A stretch of 7,286 bases of DNA from the NCBI GenBank assembly GCA_021845325.1, contig JAKBRR010000081.1, positions 1 through 7,286 of the forward strand, written 5' to 3'. Positions within the stretch are counted from its first letter, which is position 1. Every line of letters begins with the position of its first letter. Under the pieces are notes generated by a model that saw only the letters and a program-made list of their open reading frames with translations, made no database searches and was not told where the DNA came from. The stretch comes from Thermoplasmata archaeon (GTDB lineage Archaea; Thermoplasmatota; Thermoplasmata; Thermoplasmatales; Thermoplasmataceae). Position numbers and translations under genes: made by a program. Of the stretch, positions 141 to 7,286 are shown piece by piece.

Positions 141-2117
141 ATGCTTATGACTAGCATTCTCAATAATAGATCTAGAATAAGAATTTTACTAGCCATAGTA
201 ATTGTTGTTATTTTTGTGGCTTCTGGAAGTATGCTTGGTATTGCATCCTATTATACAAACATGGAGAAACAACAGAATGGAAATTCACAAAATGCAACTC
301 CTTCAACTTCATCAAGCAACGGAGGAACTCTAAGTGAAGGTATTGTTACAACCATAGTTCAGGAATCGTTCAACTATTTTTCACCTGTTGAAGACTATTA
401 CATAACATCGATGCTTTATCTGCCATTCGCTACACCTGAATTTCCGCCGCTCCCGTCTATTTCAATGGTATTAGGTCAAAACGTATCACATAAGGATAAT
501 AACATGACATGGTGCTTATCGCTCAAGAAAAACTTAAAATGGGATAATGGCTCCCCTCTTAATTCAACTGATTTATGGTTTACAATGGAGCTCTACGTAC
601 AGCAAGGATGGATTAGTCTGAACGTAACAAAGATAAGTATAGTGAACTCAACTACTATAAAAATACAGACAAATAGACCTGAACCTGACTTCTTCGATCT
701 CTGGTTGCTGGACACCAACTCTTATATTTTCCCATATGAGTCATTTCACTCACATGACCTTAACTTAAGTGCCAACAGTGTCAATGTAACTGGTTTCAAG
801 ACATTTTCAAACTTTCATAACATAGTGGCAGACGGCCCATTCGTAGTTACTAATTATACTGTAGGTGAGAATCCTATGATCTTTAATGCCAATCCTTACT
901 ATTATCAAGGTCCACCAAAAATGAGCCATCTTACAATACGATTCTTTTCCTCTGCCTCATCCGAATCAGCTGCAATGAGATCAGGCGAGATCAGTGCAAT
1001 GTGGTCTAACGCGGCGTATAACACCATTGTGGCTCCAATATTCACAGGTATACCAGACTCAACCATCCATGAAGTTGAGCCTGGAGAGTTTGAGGAGGCT
1101 TCCTTCAATATGCATATTTGGCCATTTAATACAACTCAGTTCAGGCAAGCTCTTGCGTATCTGACTAATCAGAGTGCAATAAATTCAATCGTTAATTCTA
1201 ATAGTTCCACTCTAGTTGGATATGATACCTTAACAAGTTCACTTGATAATAGCATTGGACTGAATCCAGCATCCCTGAATAGCTACACTTACAATCAGGC
1301 AAAGGCAAATGAACTATTATCTGAAATAGGCATAATTAGAGATGAAACTCCCGGTTCAACTAATTATGGGTTGTATGTTTATGAAAATAGTTCACTTCCT
1401 TGCTATGGAAATCCAGTCACCATACAAATAACTACCACACAGCTGGGATATGGGGATTTATCATCAGCAGTAGAGTTAAGTAACGAGTGGGAATCAGCTG
1501 GGTTCAAGGTAGAAATAACATCCATATCTTCCAGCACGATATATGCAACATTAGATTCAGCTACAGGATGGGAAGTTGTTGTTTTCCCTGATCCATCTGG
1601 ATATCCACCCATACCGGGATATCTTTTGCCAACAATTACCGATTCTGATAACTCCACTGCTTACAGGTATTCCCCCTTTCACGGTGTTACCAATTATAAC
1701 TATTCCTATGCTTCAAAACTGGTTAACCTCAGTGAAGAGTATGCTTTGGGGACATCCCAGTCCAATCATTACCTCAGGGAACTTGCTGTCTACATTGATC
1801 AGGTAGTTCCAGTAATTCCTCTGTTCGATGGAGAATGGTGGGTCGTAGTCTCTAATAATTACGACTGGGGTAATTATACCAATCACACCGGGGTATACTC
1901 AACACAGGATCTAGTTGTTTCCACGTTCAACTATCCCGCACTGGACATGGTGCATCTTATTACCGTTAGTAAACACACATCCAGTAATTCTATATATTAC
2001 ATAATTGGAGGTATAGTGGCAGCAGTAGTAGTGATCGGAGGAGTTGCTAGCATCATGACATCAAAGAAACACAAAAAAGCGAGGGAAGGGGAAGAAAGGG
2101 AGGATGATGATAAGTAA
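141..2117 (+). CDS. Membrane-anchored ABC transporter substrate-binding protein, oligopeptide/dipeptide type (SBP_bac_5 family)
   Basis: This is probably the extracellular binding component of an ABC importer for peptides or, as in some archaeal members of the family, oligosaccharides. After a basic N-terminus comes a hydrophobic helix (about residues 14-36), then a Ser/Thr/Asn-rich linker (about 45-62), then the binding domain. Family landmarks are the LKWDNGSPL-type segment near 132-140 (compare VKWHDGTPF), GPFVVTNYTVGENP and NPYYYQGPP in the middle, and FRQALAY further on. A second hydrophobic helix (about 619-639) and a charged KKHKK...DDDK tail end the protein, as in archaeal C-terminally anchored binding proteins. 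There is no lipobox cysteine. About 19 N-x-S/T sequons in the outer part suggest N-glycosylation. The ATG at 141 is the first after an in-frame stop at 135-137; the ATG at 147 is a possible alternative. No permease or ATPase gene is visible, so the partners lie elsewhere. Family assignment is firm; the ligand is inferred only from neighbours. Confidence 0.88.
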   Translation: MLMTSILNNRSRIRILLAIVIVVIFVASGSMLGIASYYTNMEKQQNGNSQNATPSTSSSNGGTLSEGIVTTIVQESFNYFSPVEDYYITSMLYLPFATPEFPPLPSISMVLGQNVSHKDNNMTWCLSLKKNLKWDNGSPLNSTDLWFTMELYVQQGWISLNVTKISIVNSTTIKIQTNRPEPDFFDLWLLDTNSYIFPYESFHSHDLNLSANSVNVTGFKTFSNFHNIVADGPFVVTNYTVGENPMIFNANPYYYQGPPKMSHLTIRFFSSASSESAAMRSGEISAMWSNAAYNTIVAPIFTGIPDSTIHEVEPGEFEEASFNMHIWPFNTTQFRQALAYLTNQSAINSIVNSNSSTLVGYDTLTSSLDNSIGLNPASLNSYTYNQAKANELLSEIGIIRDETPGSTNYGLYVYENSSLPCYGNPVTIQITTTQLGYGDLSSAVELSNEWESAGFKVEITSISSSTIYATLDSATGWEVVVFPDPSGYPPIPGYLLPTITDSDNSTAYRYSPFHGVTNYNYSYASKLVNLSEEYALGTSQSNHYLRELAVYIDQVVPVIPLFDGEWWVVVSNNYDWGNYTNHTGVYSTQDLVVSTFNYPALDMVHLITVSKHTSSNSIYYIIGGIVAAVVVIGGVASIMTSKKHKKAREGEEREDDDK

Positions 2118-2122
2118 TCAAT

Positions 2123-2170
2123 GTATTTCTTCAAAATTTCTACCAGTTCATTCATTTTACAATTTTGTTA
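2123..2170 (+). terminator. T-rich stretch after the solute-binding protein gene, possible archaeal terminator
   Basis: Just past the TAA at 2115-2117 the + strand carries several short T runs (TTTCTTC, ATTTC, CATTTTAC, AATTTTG) and no GC-rich hairpin. Archaeal RNA polymerase commonly releases at oligo-T tracts, so this is a plausible but weak termination zone. Confidence 0.25.
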
Positions 2171-2332
2171 AGTAATTTCGCACACTAAAGATTCATTCAC
2201 CTTTTGTTGTTTCGGACCCTCATGGTATATTCTATGGGTTCATATTATTGGATCAGGTATCTGGAGGTTTGTAAGAGCATCTTCCAAGAAGACATCAGAT
2301 AGTTTTTGAAAAATCAATAGAACTAATTCGAT

Positions 2333-2343
2333 ATTTAATTAAA
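2333..2343. repeat. ATTTAATTAAA element, copy 1 (upstream of the GH3 gene)
   Basis: The core TTTAATTAAA (2334-2343) is a perfect 10-bp palindrome. The same 11 bases occur upstream of the GNAT and GH20 genes, and a one-mismatch copy precedes the NlpC/P60-like gene. This copy lies about 90 nt before the GH3 start. It may be an operator or an AT-rich promoter part; function is unproven. Confidence 0.4.
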
Positions 2344-2403
2344 GTTTATCAAGATTTTAGAGCATCATGATAATATTATTGCACAAATATCTTAATCGAA
2401 AAG

Positions 2404-2416
2404 GTATTATAATATC
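2404..2416 (+). promoter_or_regulatory. Candidate TATA box of the GH3 gene
   Basis: GTATTATAATATC is centred about 23 nt before the ATG at 2433. That spacing places transcription start at or next to the start codon, predicting a leaderless or nearly leaderless mRNA. No Shine-Dalgarno sequence precedes the ATG, which fits. Confidence 0.45.
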
Positions 2417-2432
2417 TAAATGATCCTTTAGA

Positions 2433-3833
2433 ATGAGAGCTGGATTATTTTTGCAGAGTGGCATAGTGGGCTTCGAAAGAGAAGAAGGATTGAAAAGATT
2501 ATCTAAACTTCTACCTACTTCAGTCGCTCTTTTCAGACCTGATTATTCAGATGACAGGGATCTACTTCAACTGATTCATAGAATCAATAAAATCTACAAA
2601 ATAGATAATGGAGTAAAGGAACCCTATATAGCAATTGACCAAGAAGGAGGAAACGTGGTAAGATTACCATGGACTAACTACAGTCCTGGCAATTACAATC
2701 TGGGGAATATCAACAACACTGCATTCACAGAATTTGTGGGCATGTCAACTGGTTACGATCTTTTTGAACGTGGGATCAGGTGGAATTTAGCACCAGCATT
2801 GGATATATTGAACACAATTAATCCAGTGATGATGGAGAGATGTTTTGGAGAAGATACTGAAATTGTGGCAACACATGGAGAAGCTTATATCAGGGGCCTT
2901 CAGAAAATGGGTGTTGCAGCAACCGCAAAACATTTTCCAGGGCATGGTGGGGTCATGGAAGATTCCCACCAAACACTTCCCAGAGACAGGAGATCCTATA
3001 CTATGGTAATCAATGAAGCATTTCCGTTTAAGAAGGCAATAGAAGCAGGCGTCAGCTCTATCATGCTGGCCCATATACTTTATGAAGAACTTGATATGGA
3101 TTTTCCTGCTTCTCTATCATCAAAGATACAGCAAATACTAAGAAGAGACTTGGGATTTGATGGGATGCTAATAACTGATTCAGTTGACATGGGAGCACTT
3201 ACGAAGAATTACACTTTTGAGGAGATAATCAAGTATTCGCTTTCAGGTGAGGTCGATCTTGTCGAGTGCGTGGATTTTAACCAGACTCTTGAAATGGCGG
3301 ATTATGTTATGAAAGTTGATAGCGAAGTATTAAAAAAGAAGCTCAAGCATATGGAAAATTTTCTCCCAAACAGGCAATTGAATTTTAGGCCTCCTCAGCA
3401 ACTGATGAGTGCCATGTCACTAATATCTAGCAGGGTGATCAGAAAGAAAACACTTGATCCATCCAGAAAGATAAACATATTTTTCCTAGACTCCAGGGCA
3501 GAAAGTGTTGCTTCTGATAGGCTTTCATCAAAGGATGATATAATAAAGCAACTCAGGAATGATAGATTAGATGTCAAGGCTGGAAGCTTGAACGATCTAA
3601 AAAAATTCAATGGCAAAAATGAACAGATTATATTGATAGGCAGAAATGAACACCTAAAGGATAGACAAGATTTAATATCTGCTGTATCCAAGGAGAACGA
3701 TGCAGTATATATATCAATGTCCATTGCAAGGGATACTGGAATAGTACCAAAATCAGCAGGTTATATAGCAGCCTATTCTGTGAAACCTGAAGCCGTTGTT
3801 GGTGCCATTTACAAGGCTGTAGGTTTTATCTGA
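2433..3833 (+). CDS. nagZ: Glycoside hydrolase family 3 beta-N-acetylhexosaminidase, NagZ type, two-domain
   Basis: NagZ enzymes remove non-reducing GlcNAc from muropeptides (GlcNAc-MurNAc or GlcNAc-anhydroMurNAc) and also act on chitobiose, through a covalent glycosyl-enzyme. Visible marks are IDQEGG (68-73), NLAPALDI (118-125), RCFGED (136-141), the NagZ signature KHFPGHG (166-172) followed by D177-S-H179, the Asp-His pair taken as the general acid/base in this subfamily, and GFDGMLITD with D249 as expected nucleophile. Residues from about 345 form a second alpha/beta domain ending in the AAYSVKPEAVVGA segment, as in Bacillus-type two-domain NagZ; E. coli NagZ has only the first domain. At 466 residues it is compact for the two-domain class. 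There is no signal peptide or membrane segment, so it should act in the cytoplasm on imported substrate. The ATG at 2433 fits both the family N-terminus and the TATA spacing. Subfamily assignment is strong; murein rather than chitin as substrate is inferred from context. Confidence 0.92.
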   Translation: MRAGLFLQSGIVGFEREEGLKRLSKLLPTSVALFRPDYSDDRDLLQLIHRINKIYKIDNGVKEPYIAIDQEGGNVVRLPWTNYSPGNYNLGNINNTAFTEFVGMSTGYDLFERGIRWNLAPALDILNTINPVMMERCFGEDTEIVATHGEAYIRGLQKMGVAATAKHFPGHGGVMEDSHQTLPRDRRSYTMVINEAFPFKKAIEAGVSSIMLAHILYEELDMDFPASLSSKIQQILRRDLGFDGMLITDSVDMGALTKNYTFEEIIKYSLSGEVDLVECVDFNQTLEMADYVMKVDSEVLKKKLKHMENFLPNRQLNFRPPQQLMSAMSLISSRVIRKKTLDPSRKINIFFLDSRAESVASDRLSSKDDIIKQLRNDRLDVKAGSLNDLKKFNGKNEQIILIGRNEHLKDRQDLISAVSKENDAVYISMSIARDTGIVPKSAGYIAAYSVKPEAVVGAIYKAVGFI

Positions 3834-3853
3834 AGGACTATCTTCACTCATGA

Positions 3854-3858
3854 TTTTT
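3854..3858 (+). terminator. T5 run after the GH3 gene, possible terminator
   Basis: A single TTTTT lies about 20 nt past the TGA at 3831-3833 and has no strong hairpin before it. It is the only oligo-T tract of this length directly after the gene and could serve as an archaeal termination signal. The evidence is weak. Confidence 0.2.
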
Positions 3859-3901
3859 GAAGAGGGATAGGCAATTTTAGTCATTTACGTCAAAATTATT
3901 G

Positions 3902-3912
3902 ATTTAATTAAA
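3902..3912. repeat. ATTTAATTAAA element, copy 2 (upstream of the GNAT gene)
   Basis: This is an exact copy of the 11-bp element, with the palindromic core TTTAATTAAA at 3903-3912. It lies about 50 nt upstream of the candidate TATA box of the acetyltransferase gene. Confidence 0.4.
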
Positions 3913-3960
3913 ATAAAATACGATAAATAGTTTGTGATAGGATAGAAAGCTGGGTTAAAA

Positions 3961-3970
3961 TTAATATAAA
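3961..3970 (+). promoter_or_regulatory. Candidate TATA box of the acetyltransferase gene
   Basis: TTAATATAAA is centred about 25 nt before the ATG at 3990, the spacing expected for a leaderless archaeal transcript. An ATG at 3971 is out of frame with the gene and meets a stop after eight codons. No ribosome-binding motif precedes 3990. Confidence 0.45.
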
Positions 3971-3989
3971 ATGCGATCTTTTAATATTT

Positions 3990-5081
3990 ATGTATAGTGA
4001 AGTTAAAAGAGGAACAAGAGAAAGTATGCACTGGCTAATGGAAACAGTAAATAAAGTATTCGGTTCAGAAAATTCAATTGACTTCGAAATGGGGTTCGAA
4101 TCTCCTTTCCTTTTTACAGAAGAAAATATAAAAAACACCTTCTACATAGATGACGGAAGTAAATCAGTAAGTCAGGCAAGCGTGCTCTTATCAAAAGTAT
4201 CTCTTAATGGTGTAGTTATTGATGTGGCATCTTTAGGTTCTGTGTGTACTCTGAAAGAACACAGGCACAATGGGCTTTCAACAAAGATTATCAATGAGAT
4301 CATAAGAGTATTCACAAAGTCCAAGGTGGATCTTTTGCTTGTTTCAGGGGAGATAGAACTTTACAAAAAGCTTGACTGTGTAAGAACAGGAAGCATCTAT
4401 ATTGGTGTGGCACATCTTTTAAAGAATGAATCTGATTACGATGTAAGGATGTCAAATAATGAGGGAAGAATTAAAAACTCATATGTGTACCAAAATATTC
4501 ACAAATCGGAAAAATTGAGATTCCTAAGAACTGAAGAAGACTTTAATAAGTTAATGAATTCCAGCTCCTTCAACAGTGAAGGATACATAGTAAAGTTGTT
4601 TGAAATCTATAATTGGAAAGAGGAGATTGTTGCATATGCAGTGATATTCAAAAGGGATGGAGATAAAAGAATGAGGATTATGGAATATGCTGGATCTAGA
4701 TATGCCATTATGCATTCTCTTGGAAATATCATGGAAAAAATGGAGTGCACTGACGCATATTTCAACATAAACACTGAAGATTTAGATCTAATGGATGTCT
4801 GCTCTACTATGGAGATAAGATTACGTAAGGAAAATATTCCTGGCACAGTGAGGATACTAGACAGTAATTCTATCATCCAGAAACTTACTCCATTGATTAA
4901 TGAAAGAACTGGAGGAAATTTTGAATTGAAGCAGGAAACGGGAAACAAATGGAACTTCACTTCAAAAAAATTGAGTGGGAAAATAAATGGTTATGGTGAA
5001 TTAACCAGCCTAATATTCAACCATGATAGAAACAGTCTAGGTATACCCCTAATGTTCACAGATGATCTCAATTACATTTGA
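3990..5081 (+). CDS. GNAT-family N-acetyltransferase, Eis-like multi-domain form
   Basis: This is predicted to transfer acetyl from acetyl-CoA to an amine in the cytoplasm. The acetyl-CoA site is visible as beta-strand SLGSVCT (81-87) followed by EHRHNGLS: R92-H-N-G95-L-S97 fits the R/Q-x-x-G-x-G/A loop, with Ser in the last position. The helix IINEIIRVF and strand VDLLLVSG follow, as usual for the fold. The rest resembles Eis-like proteins: a second degenerate GNAT-like unit (about 160-285, with AYAVIF and IMEYAGSRYAI) and a C-terminal piece (about 286-345, GTVRILD...GNFELK...GELTSLIFN) like the SCP2-type domain of that family. The length of 363 aa is near that of the family. No signal peptide or membrane segment is present. 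It sits between two hexosaminidase genes, which suggests an amino sugar, a muropeptide amine or a released amino acid as acceptor; this is inference and the substrate is unknown. The fold is confident; the sub-domain assignment less so. Confidence 0.78.
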   Translation: MYSEVKRGTRESMHWLMETVNKVFGSENSIDFEMGFESPFLFTEENIKNTFYIDDGSKSVSQASVLLSKVSLNGVVIDVASLGSVCTLKEHRHNGLSTKIINEIIRVFTKSKVDLLLVSGEIELYKKLDCVRTGSIYIGVAHLLKNESDYDVRMSNNEGRIKNSYVYQNIHKSEKLRFLRTEEDFNKLMNSSSFNSEGYIVKLFEIYNWKEEIVAYAVIFKRDGDKRMRIMEYAGSRYAIMHSLGNIMEKMECTDAYFNINTEDLDLMDVCSTMEIRLRKENIPGTVRILDSNSIIQKLTPLINERTGGNFELKQETGNKWNFTSKKLSGKINGYGELTSLIFNHDRNSLGIPLMFTDDLNYI

Positions 5082-5235
5082 ACACCTGAAATTTCAAAAC
5101 GCAGTTGAAATGTATTGTAATAGAATGAAATATTCATAACGAAAAACCACTTAGAAATTACTTCCATATTCTAGCAACTAGTTAAGATATATAATTCATC
5201 GTACTTTTCTAACGGTAAGGTCTAAGTGAATCCCA

Positions 5236-5250
5236 TATTATTTAATTAAA
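5236..5250 (+). promoter_or_regulatory. Candidate promoter of the GH20 gene
   Basis: The AT-only stretch TATTATTTAATTAAA is the best box-A candidate near the gene. It predicts a transcription start near 5268-5272, hence a leader of about 10 nt. It overlaps copy 3 of the repeated element. A second AT element, TATATAATTCATC at 5188-5200, resembles TATATTAATTCATC at 37-50 before the first gene and could be an alternative. Confidence 0.35.
5240..5250. repeat. ATTTAATTAAA element, copy 3 (upstream of the GH20 gene)
   Basis: This is an exact third copy, with core TTTAATTAAA at 5241-5250. Unlike the other copies it lies close to the gene, about 30 nt before the ATG at 5281, so here it may itself be the TATA element or overlap it. 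Confidence 0.4.
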
Positions 5251-5280
5251 TTCTGAAAACAGAAACGATTTTGTATATTA

Positions 5281-6948
5281 ATGAATTATAAGCACATGGA
5301 AGATAAAATTTATCTTGTTCCTGAGCCAAAAAGCATCAAGTTCACAGGAAGGTGGTTACAGTTTGATGGTTTTTCTAATTTTCGTGAGGAGATCAGGGAG
5401 GAATTCAACATAAAGAAGGGATCGTGGGAGTTCAGGCACATCTATGATTCTGTTCAAAGCATCAAAGTATATGAAAAGAAAGTCGAAACACATGGGGACA
5501 TTAACATAGCAACGGCAACCGCAATCCAGCTTATCATGCAAAGAAAAGGGTTTCTTCCAGAAGTTGAGGTAATCGAGCAATTAGACTTCTCATTCAGGGG
5601 TTTTCATCTTGATATAGCAAGAGGAGGTGTCCCATCACTTGAAACCTTCAAAAAATTCATGGACCTCCTTTTTGTCATGAAGTACAATAAATTTGGAATC
5701 TATTTTGAAGACCTATATCCGTGGAAAAGTTTTCCTGAAATAGGTAAACGAAGAGGTCGTATCACAGAAGAAGAATGGAAGGAAATATTGAAACATGGAA
5801 ACAAGATTGGTCTTGATGTATTTCCGTCTCTTGAATTACTTGGACATATGGAGCATTTCCTTGAGATGGACAAATATAGAGAACTAGGTGAACTATGGTG
5901 GACTGAAAGGGACGACTGTGTTGATGTTACCAATCAGAAGGCTAGCAAATTCACAAAGGATTTACTGAAGGATGCCATTGAAACATCCCCATCAAAGTTA
6001 ATACATATAGGAGGAGATGAAACGTGGTCCCTTGGAAGAGGAAGATCCTTAGATAAAACGGAAAAGTTTCAGGGCCCAGACCTTTACATAAAGCATTACA
6101 GAGAACTTGTTAATTTAACCAGTAACATGGGAAAAAAGGCCATGATGTGGGGAGACATGCTTACAGGTATGTATCTATCAAGTGAAGAGAAAAAATACTG
6201 GTCAAAGGTAGTTGAAGATAAGATCTGGGATAATGTCATGATAGCGAACTGGGATTATGAACCCCTGTCAGTGGATCATTTCAGAAGGAGGATATCAGAG
6301 ATAGGGCATATTGATCAGCAGATAGCATGTCCTGCACTGAACAGTTCTGCCACGTTTTACCCAGATTTTGAACCGGCCCTAAAGAATATCACATCTTTCC
6401 TTAAAGCTGCAAAAGAGGAAAAGTTGCAGGGATACATGATAACTGCATGGGGTGATTTGGGGCAAGAGTGTCTATTTTCGCTTCTTAATCCATTGGTTAT
6501 GGCATCTGCCGATATATTCTCTGATCCAAAGGAATTTCCAAAAAAATTCTCAATATTATCAGGAGAGGATATTGAGTGTTCCAAAGCAAGGTTTGAAGCA
6601 GGAAAATTGAACTGCGCACCCATGATCAGGAATGTACTTTACAGAAATCTCAATTTTGTCTCAGAAAGGAGAGAACTCAGAACAGGGTGGTATGAAGCAA
6701 TGAGGTCTTTTGTTAATAAATACAGCGGTGCAAAACTTTCAGAGGATATGAATGCAATACTCCTGTTAATGAAACAGTGTATAAACATGGAGAATAGAGA
6801 ATTTAAGGGTCAGGAATTTGGAAGTGCAATCAGGAAATATGAGGAACTATGGCTAAGAGAAAGGAAGATCTATGGTCTCAGTAATGTTGTATCAAAATTA
6901 CTTGGATCATGCGAAATGGAATCAATCCTTAACAACACAAGTAAATGA
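5281..6948 (+). CDS. Glycoside hydrolase family 20 beta-N-acetylhexosaminidase, GcnA-like
   Basis: GH20 enzymes release terminal GlcNAc or GalNAc by substrate-assisted catalysis in which the substrate's own acetamido group attacks. The catalytic signature is intact: HIGGDE at 242-247, with D246 orienting the acetamido group and E247 as acid/base. Other barrel marks are FRGFHLDIARG (105-115), YFEDLYPW (141-148), FPSLELLGHMEHFL (181-194), LGRGRSLDK (251-259), MMWGDM (288-293) and ITAWGDLGQE (387-396). The layout resembles bacterial GcnA-like proteins: a short N-terminal domain (about 1-100), the barrel, and a helical C-terminal part (about 400-555). At 555 aa it is somewhat shorter than GcnA-type enzymes. 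No signal peptide is seen, so cytoplasmic. The ATG at 5281 is the first start after an in-frame stop at 5254-5256; Met6 at 5296 is an alternative that would still keep the conserved YLVPEPKSI segment. It lies downstream of the GH3 and GNAT genes. Family is certain; substrate (GlcNAc from murein, chitin or glycans) is open. Confidence 0.92.
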   Translation: MNYKHMEDKIYLVPEPKSIKFTGRWLQFDGFSNFREEIREEFNIKKGSWEFRHIYDSVQSIKVYEKKVETHGDINIATATAIQLIMQRKGFLPEVEVIEQLDFSFRGFHLDIARGGVPSLETFKKFMDLLFVMKYNKFGIYFEDLYPWKSFPEIGKRRGRITEEEWKEILKHGNKIGLDVFPSLELLGHMEHFLEMDKYRELGELWWTERDDCVDVTNQKASKFTKDLLKDAIETSPSKLIHIGGDETWSLGRGRSLDKTEKFQGPDLYIKHYRELVNLTSNMGKKAMMWGDMLTGMYLSSEEKKYWSKVVEDKIWDNVMIANWDYEPLSVDHFRRRISEIGHIDQQIACPALNSSATFYPDFEPALKNITSFLKAAKEEKLQGYMITAWGDLGQECLFSLLNPLVMASADIFSDPKEFPKKFSILSGEDIECSKARFEAGKLNCAPMIRNVLYRNLNFVSERRELRTGWYEAMRSFVNKYSGAKLSEDMNAILLLMKQCINMENREFKGQEFGSAIRKYEELWLRERKIYGLSNVVSKLLGSCEMESILNNTSK

Positions 6949-6978
6949 GAAAATTATAATTATTAACAAAAATAGATA

Positions 6979-6989
6979 ATTTAATTATA
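6979..6989. repeat. ATTTAATTATA element, degenerate copy 4 (upstream of the NlpC/P60-like gene)
   Basis: It matches the 11-bp element at 10 of 11 positions, with T for A at the next-to-last base. It lies about 30 nt after the GH20 stop and about 145 nt before the next ATG, farther than the other copies, so its link to the following gene is weaker. Confidence 0.25.
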
Positions 6990-7105
6990 CGGAATAACTA
7001 ATTCGCTGCCTTCTAGGGTTATCATTATTGTTAAATTAGTATAGTCTATTCATAACAACAAGAATCTGGAATTAGGATAAACATTTCTTCTCATGGAAAG
7101 GATAA

Positions 7106-7115
7106 GTTTCATATG
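7106..7115 (+). promoter_or_regulatory. Weak TATA-like element before the NlpC/P60-like gene
   Basis: GTTTCATATG is centred about 25 nt before the ATG at 7136, the distance seen for the GH3 and GNAT genes, but it is a poor box-A match. The 187 nt between the GH20 stop and this ATG hold no other gene that I can see. Confidence 0.22.
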
Positions 7116-7135
7116 CTCATAGTGAATGCTGCAGG

Positions 7136-7286
7136 ATGTATCAGGTACGGATAGGTGTTGGAGATTTAAGAAGTAAGGCAATGTTTGAATCTGAAAGAGA
7201 AACACAGGTAGTTTTTGGAGAAAGATTTGACCTCCTGGAAAGGGGAGACGCCTATTCTTTAATTCAAACCCAGGATCATGTTAAAG
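7136..7286 (+). CDS. N-terminal SH3b domain of a probable NlpC/P60-family peptidase (partial, runs off the window)
   Basis: Fifty residues are visible from the ATG at 7136; the gene continues past the end. The start VRIGVGDLRSK followed by SERETQVVFGERFDLLERGDAYSLIQTQDH follows the pattern of the first SH3b domain of NlpC/P60 endopeptidases such as YkfC and dipeptidyl-peptidase VI (V-x-DLR, SE-x-x-TQ-x-x-FGE-x-x-x-x-LE-x-GD). Those enzymes cut the gamma-D-Glu-L-diamino acid bond of murein stem peptides. The catalytic Cys-His domain lies beyond the window, so activity cannot be checked. No signal peptide precedes the domain, so a cytoplasmic peptide-processing role is likely. The ATG is the only start in frame after the stop at 7103-7105. 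Its place after NagZ-type GH3 and GH20 genes supports a muropeptide-breakdown role. The main doubt is that SH3b domains occur in other proteins as well. Confidence 0.6.
   Translation, partial: MYQVRIGVGDLRSKAMFESERETQVVFGERFDLLERGDAYSLIQTQDHVK

Follow-up and report, generated by a model that had tools for sequence, protein, structure and literature searches.

The enzymes of bacterial murein recycling are well known, and genes for several of them lie together on a Bacillus velezensis plasmid (NZ_CP083716.1, locus L005), where LD-carboxypeptidase, dipeptide epimerase, C40 peptidase and peptide ABC transporter genes form what we take to be a ykf-type murein peptide operon. In the peptidase YkfC, the S1 residues for gamma-D-Glu are Tyr226, Trp228, Asp237, Ser239 and a small residue at position 257, while the hallmarks of the subfamily, Tyr118 in the SH3b domain and Asp256 in the catalytic domain, grip the free amine of L-Ala (PMC2954226; papers are cited by PMC accession). 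A YkfC of Chlamydia trachomatis accepts a tripeptide but not a MurNAc-tripeptide (PMC9928106). Murein hydrolases and D-amino-acid genes have also been reported from archaea (PMC12352652, PMC12363236). The archaeal hydrolases, some of them in Thermoplasmatota, are modular proteins with a catalytic and a wall-binding domain, about one third of them carry signal peptides, and killing of bacteria is reported for them; whether the role of archaeal murein-degrading enzymes is killing or scavenging was stated to be open (PMC12352652). Here we describe a stretch of 7,286 nucleotides from a Thermoplasmata archaeon (contig JAKBRR010000081.1, the window in what follows). It contains four complete genes and one cut gene, which encode an ABC transporter binding protein, a NagZ-like glycoside hydrolase of family 3 (GH3), a GNAT protein, a glycoside hydrolase of family 20 (GH20) and the start of a probable NlpC/P60 peptidase.

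We consider it fairly probable, at roughly 60%, that the window encodes part of a cytoplasmic set with which this archaeon degrades imported bacterial murein fragments. Like the Bacillus ykf-type operon, the window has the start of a probable SH3b-NlpC/P60 peptidase and a peptide-type ABC binding protein, and a dipeptide epimerase is present in its relatives. It differs from that operon in that it forms no tight operon, in that the GH3, GNAT and GH20 genes lie between the binding protein and the peptidase, and in that the hallmark Tyr and Asp of the peptidase are replaced; no LD-carboxypeptidase was seen within the window. The set resembles the published archaeal hydrolases in being archaeal and presumably aimed at bacterial murein, but unlike them it looks cytoplasmic and catabolic. 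A preliminary description of the window had proposed a muropeptide-scavenging locus. That proposal is partly upheld, by the archaeal affiliation of the GH3 and its kept active-site residues, the NlpC/P60 relatives of the cut protein with their catalytic residues and a probable epimerase, but it does not hold in naming the peptidase YkfC-type.

The cut gene provides 50 residues, which match the SH3b domain family SH3_16 with an E value of 1.4e-5 and 25.2 bits, just below the cut-off of 25.8; the fragment alone matched no PDB chain. When the 50 residues were padded with X, so that full-length proteins became eligible, the protein search returned exactly two proteins, P0175 and P0176 (94% and 84% over the 50 residues). 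Both are 229 aa long and consist of SH3_16 and NLPC_P60 domains (PF00877 E values of 3.7e-26 and 8.9e-24), both keep the catalytic Cys134, His180 and His192, and the nearest solved relative of P0175 is YkfC of Bacillus cereus (PDB 3h41, E 3.8e-20). The NlpC/P60 domain that had been guessed to lie downstream is therefore borne out by way of these relatives, the domain itself being situated beyond the window. The Thermoplasmata evidence for the peptidase consists of the two sequences and the window fragment; modelling the fold of the NlpC/P60 relative on the basis of two sequences gave a pLDDT of 37, and the model was set aside.

Substrate-binding residues were compared in a seven-sequence alignment of P0175 and P0176 with five references (one Bacillus and four haloarchaeal proteins). 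The S1 set is kept in both relatives as Tyr122, Trp124, Asp133, Ser135 and Ser153. In contrast, the place of Tyr118 is taken by Val49 in the window, P0175 and P0176, where all five references and PDB chain 3npf have Tyr, and the place of Asp256 is taken by Asn152 in P0175 and P0176, where all five references as well as 3h41, 3npf, 3pvq and 2hbw have Asp. The window shows the tyrosine site only, as the Asp256-equivalent site lies outside it, and the SH3b domain aligns with PDB chains only weakly, at about 11 bits; the seven-sequence alignment is in agreement. The two positions that hold the free L-Ala amine are thus both changed, Tyr to Val and Asp to Asn, which is why the published subfamily definition does not admit the protein. 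With the D-Glu pocket kept and the L-Ala clamp lost, the enzyme should still recognise gamma-D-Glu and may not require a free N-terminal alanine.

The GH3 protein contains the N-terminal catalytic domain (PF00933, 178.4 bits with a cut-off of 27), and its residues K166, H167, D177, S178, H179 and D249 are invariant in 33 of 33 sequences and align with GH3 enzymes of known structure. We take the KHFPGHG(x)4DSH loop to be the NagZ-type motif, with an Asp-His acid/base and a nucleophile Asp. The protein is 22-23% identical to B. subtilis NagZ (YbbD; PDB 4gyj, 3bmx), from which it differs in being shorter and without a strong hydrophobic N-terminal segment. From its family and the kept catalytic residues, it is predicted to be a NagZ-like beta-N-acetylglucosaminidase. 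The equivalog model NF003740 of NCBIfam (beta-N-acetylhexosaminidase) gave 158 bits (E 3.3e-46) and so missed its cut-off of 207 bits, and for this reason the enzyme is filed as NagZ-like only.

The GH3 search found 2824 proteins, of which the best 120 were used. Five of these carry a Thermoplasmata label (P0023, P0033, P0047, P0065 from Picrophilus, and P0068), and all five are within the first 68. In a tree of 91 rows (the window, locus L001 and 89 of the 120 proteins, with P0059, P0061, P0064 and 28 lower rows left out), the window falls in a 66-row clade (SH-aLRT 99) together with all five Thermoplasmata-labelled rows and apart from the four bacterial-labelled rows, which are two Paenibacillus, one Desulfobacterales and one Nomurabacteria. 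The tree was a quick one with long basal branches, and the archaeal assignment is drawn from this one gene. The GH3 phylogeny therefore gives a Thermoplasmata grouping instead of the bacterial placement that the preliminary description had named as evidence against its proposal. A scan of genome contigs gave a single match, a Nomurabacteria locus, a plasmid search with the GH3 gave 603 records, none covering 80% of the query, and scans of viral contigs with the GH3 alignment and the NlpC/P60 relative found no relative.

A dipeptide epimerase, one of the genes to be looked for according to the preliminary description, is not in the window, but it is probably located on contigs of the GH3 clade in three cases. 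The search for it used the epimerase part of P0061, a protein whose N-terminal GH3 part is 90% identical to P0033 and whose remainder, the last third of a dipeptide epimerase, is 98% identical to P0121, the two parts meeting at a shared Asp-Glu. The idea that P0061 is a real GH3-epimerase fusion was discarded; the protein is represented by a single sequence on a 1.8-kb contig and probably reflects an assembly joint or a deletion. The search found 55 proteins, P0061 included. A tree was made from 32 rows, of which 28 were taken from the 55 proteins and four were loci; in it, P0121-P0132 form a clade of 12 with support of 100/100, apart from the bacterial and haloarchaeal rows. Within this clade sits P0131, which is labelled Candidatus Parvarchaeota and perhaps comes from a misbinned contig. 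P0125 aligns with the L-Ala-D/L-Glu epimerase 1jpm (E 2.6e-68), and the clade carries KxK, the metal ligands D/E/D, a second Lys and DxD, to which we assign their presumed roles in L-Ala-D/L-Glu epimerase; the pattern for the second Lys missed two of the 12 (P0126 and P0131). The L-Ala-D/L-Glu epimerase family NF041118 was the best-scoring family for each of the four epimerases tested. The N-acetyl-D-Glu racemase DgcA was rejected as their identity, with 166-184 bits compared to 216-242 bits for NF041118 and a lower score in all four.

Co-location was inferred from equal sizes of the longest contig per cluster; the databank gives no neighbourhoods. When the 68 upper GH3 rows were compared with 54 epimerase rows (P0061 left out), equal sizes were found at 28004 bases (P0007 and P0132), 9921 bases (P0016 and P0130) and 16964 bases (P0045 and P0125), while a fourth equal pair at 2030 bases (P0042 and P0158) was dismissed as too short a contig for both genes. 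Jittering the epimerase sizes by up to 20% produced a mean of 0.20 equal pairs, with three pairs in 16 of 20,000 draws and four in none. If the twelve clade contigs are treated as random pieces of a genome of 1.8 Mb, 0.065 shared contigs are expected, and the probability of three or more is 4e-5. No epimerase contig size recurred among the 52 lower GH3 rows. The two trees are in rough agreement, since the pairing of P0125 with P0121 mirrors that of P0045 with the group of P0033, and P0130 and P0132 are together as P0016 and P0007 are within one 17-row GH3 group. Taken together, the equal sizes in three cases suggest that GH3 and dipeptide epimerase are probably close together in some Thermoplasmata.

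The peptide half of such a pathway was compared in haloarchaea through plasmid searches with P0175 (859 records, best 5 used) and with P0125 (1639 records, best 25 used). In three of the four haloarchaeal plasmid loci examined, an NlpC/P60 gene with the YkfC hallmarks is beside a dipeptide epimerase; two of these three loci were chosen via the epimerase search, and no frequency is estimated from them (further hits, H11 and H12, are outside the sample). On pNMAG01 of Natrialba magadii (L007, 447-12012), oligopeptide-type ABC ATPases, dacB, an HTH protein, DAP decarboxylase, SH3b-NlpC/P60, dipeptide epimerase, a serine hydrolase and D-aminoacylase make up a candidate murein-peptide cluster in a named archaeal strain. 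On a plasmid of Halorussus halophilus (L003, 11746-24720), NlpC/P60, DUF1611 (PF07755, which we take to be DgcN-like, a D-Glu N-acetyltransferase), epimerase, HTH, an S9 peptidase, dacB and an oligopeptide-type ABC transporter were found. On a plasmid of Halostagnicola larsenii (L006, 7983-10398), epimerase and NlpC/P60 genes adjoin each other on opposite strands, and genes for an ABC binding protein and permeases are close by. The fourth, H. salilacus, has an NlpC/P60 gene, and no epimerase is annotated within 12 kb of it. The haloarchaeal stretches contain no annotated GH3 or GH20, though the PLSDB gene tables are incomplete. As these loci demonstrate, the genes for the peptide half of murein recycling can be clustered together in archaea. 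They are similar to the window set in being archaeal and in having SH3_16 with NlpC/P60, and they have ABC transporter genes and an epimerase beside it; the YkfC hallmarks, however, are kept in four of four haloarchaeal proteins and lost in two of two Thermoplasmata-type relatives.

The features of the window are listed in Table 1. As the preliminary description had it, five consecutive genes are on the same strand, and their order and Pfam families agree with its account. The gaps between them are 315, 156, 199 and 187 nt in order, which suggests that the genes are neighbours but probably do not form one transcript or a tight operon. The first 140 bases of the window have no overlapping open reading frame of at least 60 aa.

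Table 1. Genes and sites in the 7,286-nucleotide window.
Feature	Coordinates	Strand	Length	Match
SBP_bac_5 ABC binding protein	141-2117	+	658 aa	Pfam PF00496, E 5e-41
Two-domain NagZ-like GH3, predicted beta-N-acetylglucosaminidase	2433-3833	+	466 aa	Pfam Glyco_hydro_3, E 3.2e-52
GNAT (Acetyltransf_9)	3990-5081	+	363 aa	PF13527, E 6.5e-8, 33.1 bits (cut-off 25)
GH20 beta-N-acetylhexosaminidase	5281-6948	+	555 aa	PF00728, E 9.2e-17, 61.9 bits (cut-off 22.3)
SH3b N-terminal domain of probable NlpC/P60 peptidase, cut by window end	7136-7286	+		SH3_16
Val49 codon of the cut SH3b protein, at the place of hallmark Tyr118 of B. cereus YkfC	7280-7282	+		

The binding protein belongs to family 5, the oligopeptide type, and has a pI of 4.7. 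It matches 31 PDB sequences, the best being 6tfq (E 5.3e-15), and the names of these are mostly peptide- or nickel-binding. No permease or ATPase gene is beside it in the window. A hydropathy scan with 19-residue segments was used for the membrane or soluble layout in place of a dedicated signal-peptide predictor. Among the binding protein, GH3, GH20, GNAT and P0175, strong segments (at least 1.6) were present in the binding protein alone, with peaks near both ends at residues 16 and 621; the highest value for GNAT, 1.59, is borderline to the threshold. This pattern suggests that the binding protein is anchored and that the enzymes are soluble and probably cytoplasmic. The GNAT protein, which may act on an amino sugar or a peptide amine, had no NCBIfam match and no useful solved relative in the PDB, where the one chain matched is labelled an antibody chain (E 0.0028). 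The GH20 protein matches 2epk (E 2.2e-24) and GH20C 5a69 (E 4.4e-21), and its Asp-Glu pair is present, with GGDE aligned to GMDE of 2epk and 5a6b. A plasmid search with the GH20 gave 259 records, all of which cover less than 80% of the query. A separate archaeal GH20 was observed on a plasmid of Halomontanus rarus (L008, 6121-13124), between a sulfatase and a ceramidase-domain protein and with a D-aminoacylase near.

If the set serves the degradation of imported murein fragments, the membrane-anchored family-5 binding protein would hand peptides or muropeptides to a presumed ABC importer. Inside the cell, the NagZ-like GH3 would, judging from its family, remove GlcNAc from GlcNAc-(anhydro)MurNAc peptides, and the GH20 would perhaps trim other terminal GlcNAc. 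The NlpC/P60 peptidase, given the D-Glu-binding residues kept in its two relatives, would cut the bond from gamma-D-Glu to the diamino acid, and the dipeptide epimerase, in at least some relatives, would convert L-Ala-D-Glu to a dipeptide usable by ordinary peptidases. With both residues for gripping a free N-terminal L-Ala gone, one may speculate that the peptidase accepts N-terminally blocked peptides, such as sugar-bound or acetylated ones. We put forward only tentatively, as a possibility that falls well short of the general reading, that a murein-less archaeal lineage has a full cytoplasmic muropeptide-eating pathway in which the clamp-less peptidase cuts peptides still on MurNAc or N-acetylated by the neighbouring GNAT. 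The sugar and peptide arms would then be together, a layout not found in the bacterial and haloarchaeal loci examined.

Several observations weigh against a murein-degrading set. The SH3_16 scores of P0175 and P0176 are barely at the cut-off (25.8 and 25.9 compared to 25.8), no NCBIfam NlpC/P60 model reaches its cut-off in either protein, and the YkfC hallmark pair is absent from both. The murein peptide-binding protein 3o9p matches the binding protein weakly (E 0.0029). The NF041118 scores of the four epimerases tested among the 12 are below the cut-off of 500 bits, the sharing of contigs between epimerase and GH3 is read from equal sizes alone, with the epimerase outside the window, and no epimerase-linked GH3 row falls in the closest group of the window (P0001-P0006). 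The longest contigs of P0175 and P0176 (81304 and 6262 bases) match, by eye, none of the 120 listed GH3 contigs and no listed epimerase contig, and the former mismatch speaks against strict conservation of the gene neighbourhood. Dipeptide epimerases also occur in plants and in archaea without murein, where they may serve other roles (PMC3605383).

The missed NF003740 cut-off of the GH3 also weighs against it. The main rival is a salvage of amino sugars in which chitin oligosaccharides or pieces of N-glycans are processed by the GH3, GH20 and GNAT, with the NlpC/P60 and binding proteins as unrelated neighbours. In the fold comparison of the GH3, the best score is shared by B. subtilis NagZ (solved with GlcNAc-MurNAc), which speaks for the murein reading, and the GlcNAcase 6k5j, which speaks for this rival. 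We know of no part for GH20 in bacterial murein recycling and of no standard place there for GNAT. By its entry title, the fungal GH3 4zm6 includes a region for a GNAT glucosamine acetyltransferase. The gaps of 156-315 nt count against a single operon and do not force a single pathway, and the unmatched contigs of the NlpC/P60 relatives fit this explanation as well. Amino-sugar salvage would leave unexplained the SH3b protein of probable NlpC/P60 type directly downstream and the epimerases that are probably on GH3 contigs, and we regard it as possible but doubtful.

It is also conceivable, though quite improbable, that the target of the NlpC/P60 protein is living bacteria or a substrate other than murein and that its altered S2 site reflects this other role. 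The loss of the YkfC hallmark residues would fit such a function, and archaeal peptidoglycan hydrolase homologues, some of Thermoplasmatota, may be weapons (PMC12352652). However, P0175 has no strong hydrophobic segment, it begins with a domain of the SH3_16 dipeptidyl-peptidase type, and the D-Glu-binding S1 residues are kept. A bacterial origin of the contig, or a chimeric one that joins archaeal to bacterial DNA, is extremely improbable: NagZ, NlpC/P60 and GH20 are mostly bacterial families and tree placement was made for the GH3 only, but the GH3 groups with the Thermoplasmata-labelled rows and the GC content stays at 0.33-0.41 across 1000-base windows.

The degradation of imported murein fragments would suit what is described of the order. 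The cultured Thermoplasmatales member Cuniculiplasma is described as scavenging compounds from the microbes around it, and the studied Thermoplasmatales, except Picrophilus, are described as lacking cell walls (PMC5155288, PMC6336744); both traits would fit a murein diet, with the absence of walls known for the studied members rather than for the lineage of the window. Our search of open-licence papers found no report of muropeptide catabolism in Thermoplasmata or haloarchaea, and the words peptidoglycan and murein are absent from the main texts of the Thermoplasmatales genome papers PMC3750248, PMC5155288 and PMC6336744. The Thermoplasmata catabolic set and the tidy haloarchaeal plasmid clusters, such as that of Natrialba magadii, make a feeding role directly testable, and from the altered peptidase a shift in substrate preference is predicted, which a simple assay can check. 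If the reading is true, an archaeon from a group without bacterial-type walls would feed on the wall debris of the bacteria that surround it.

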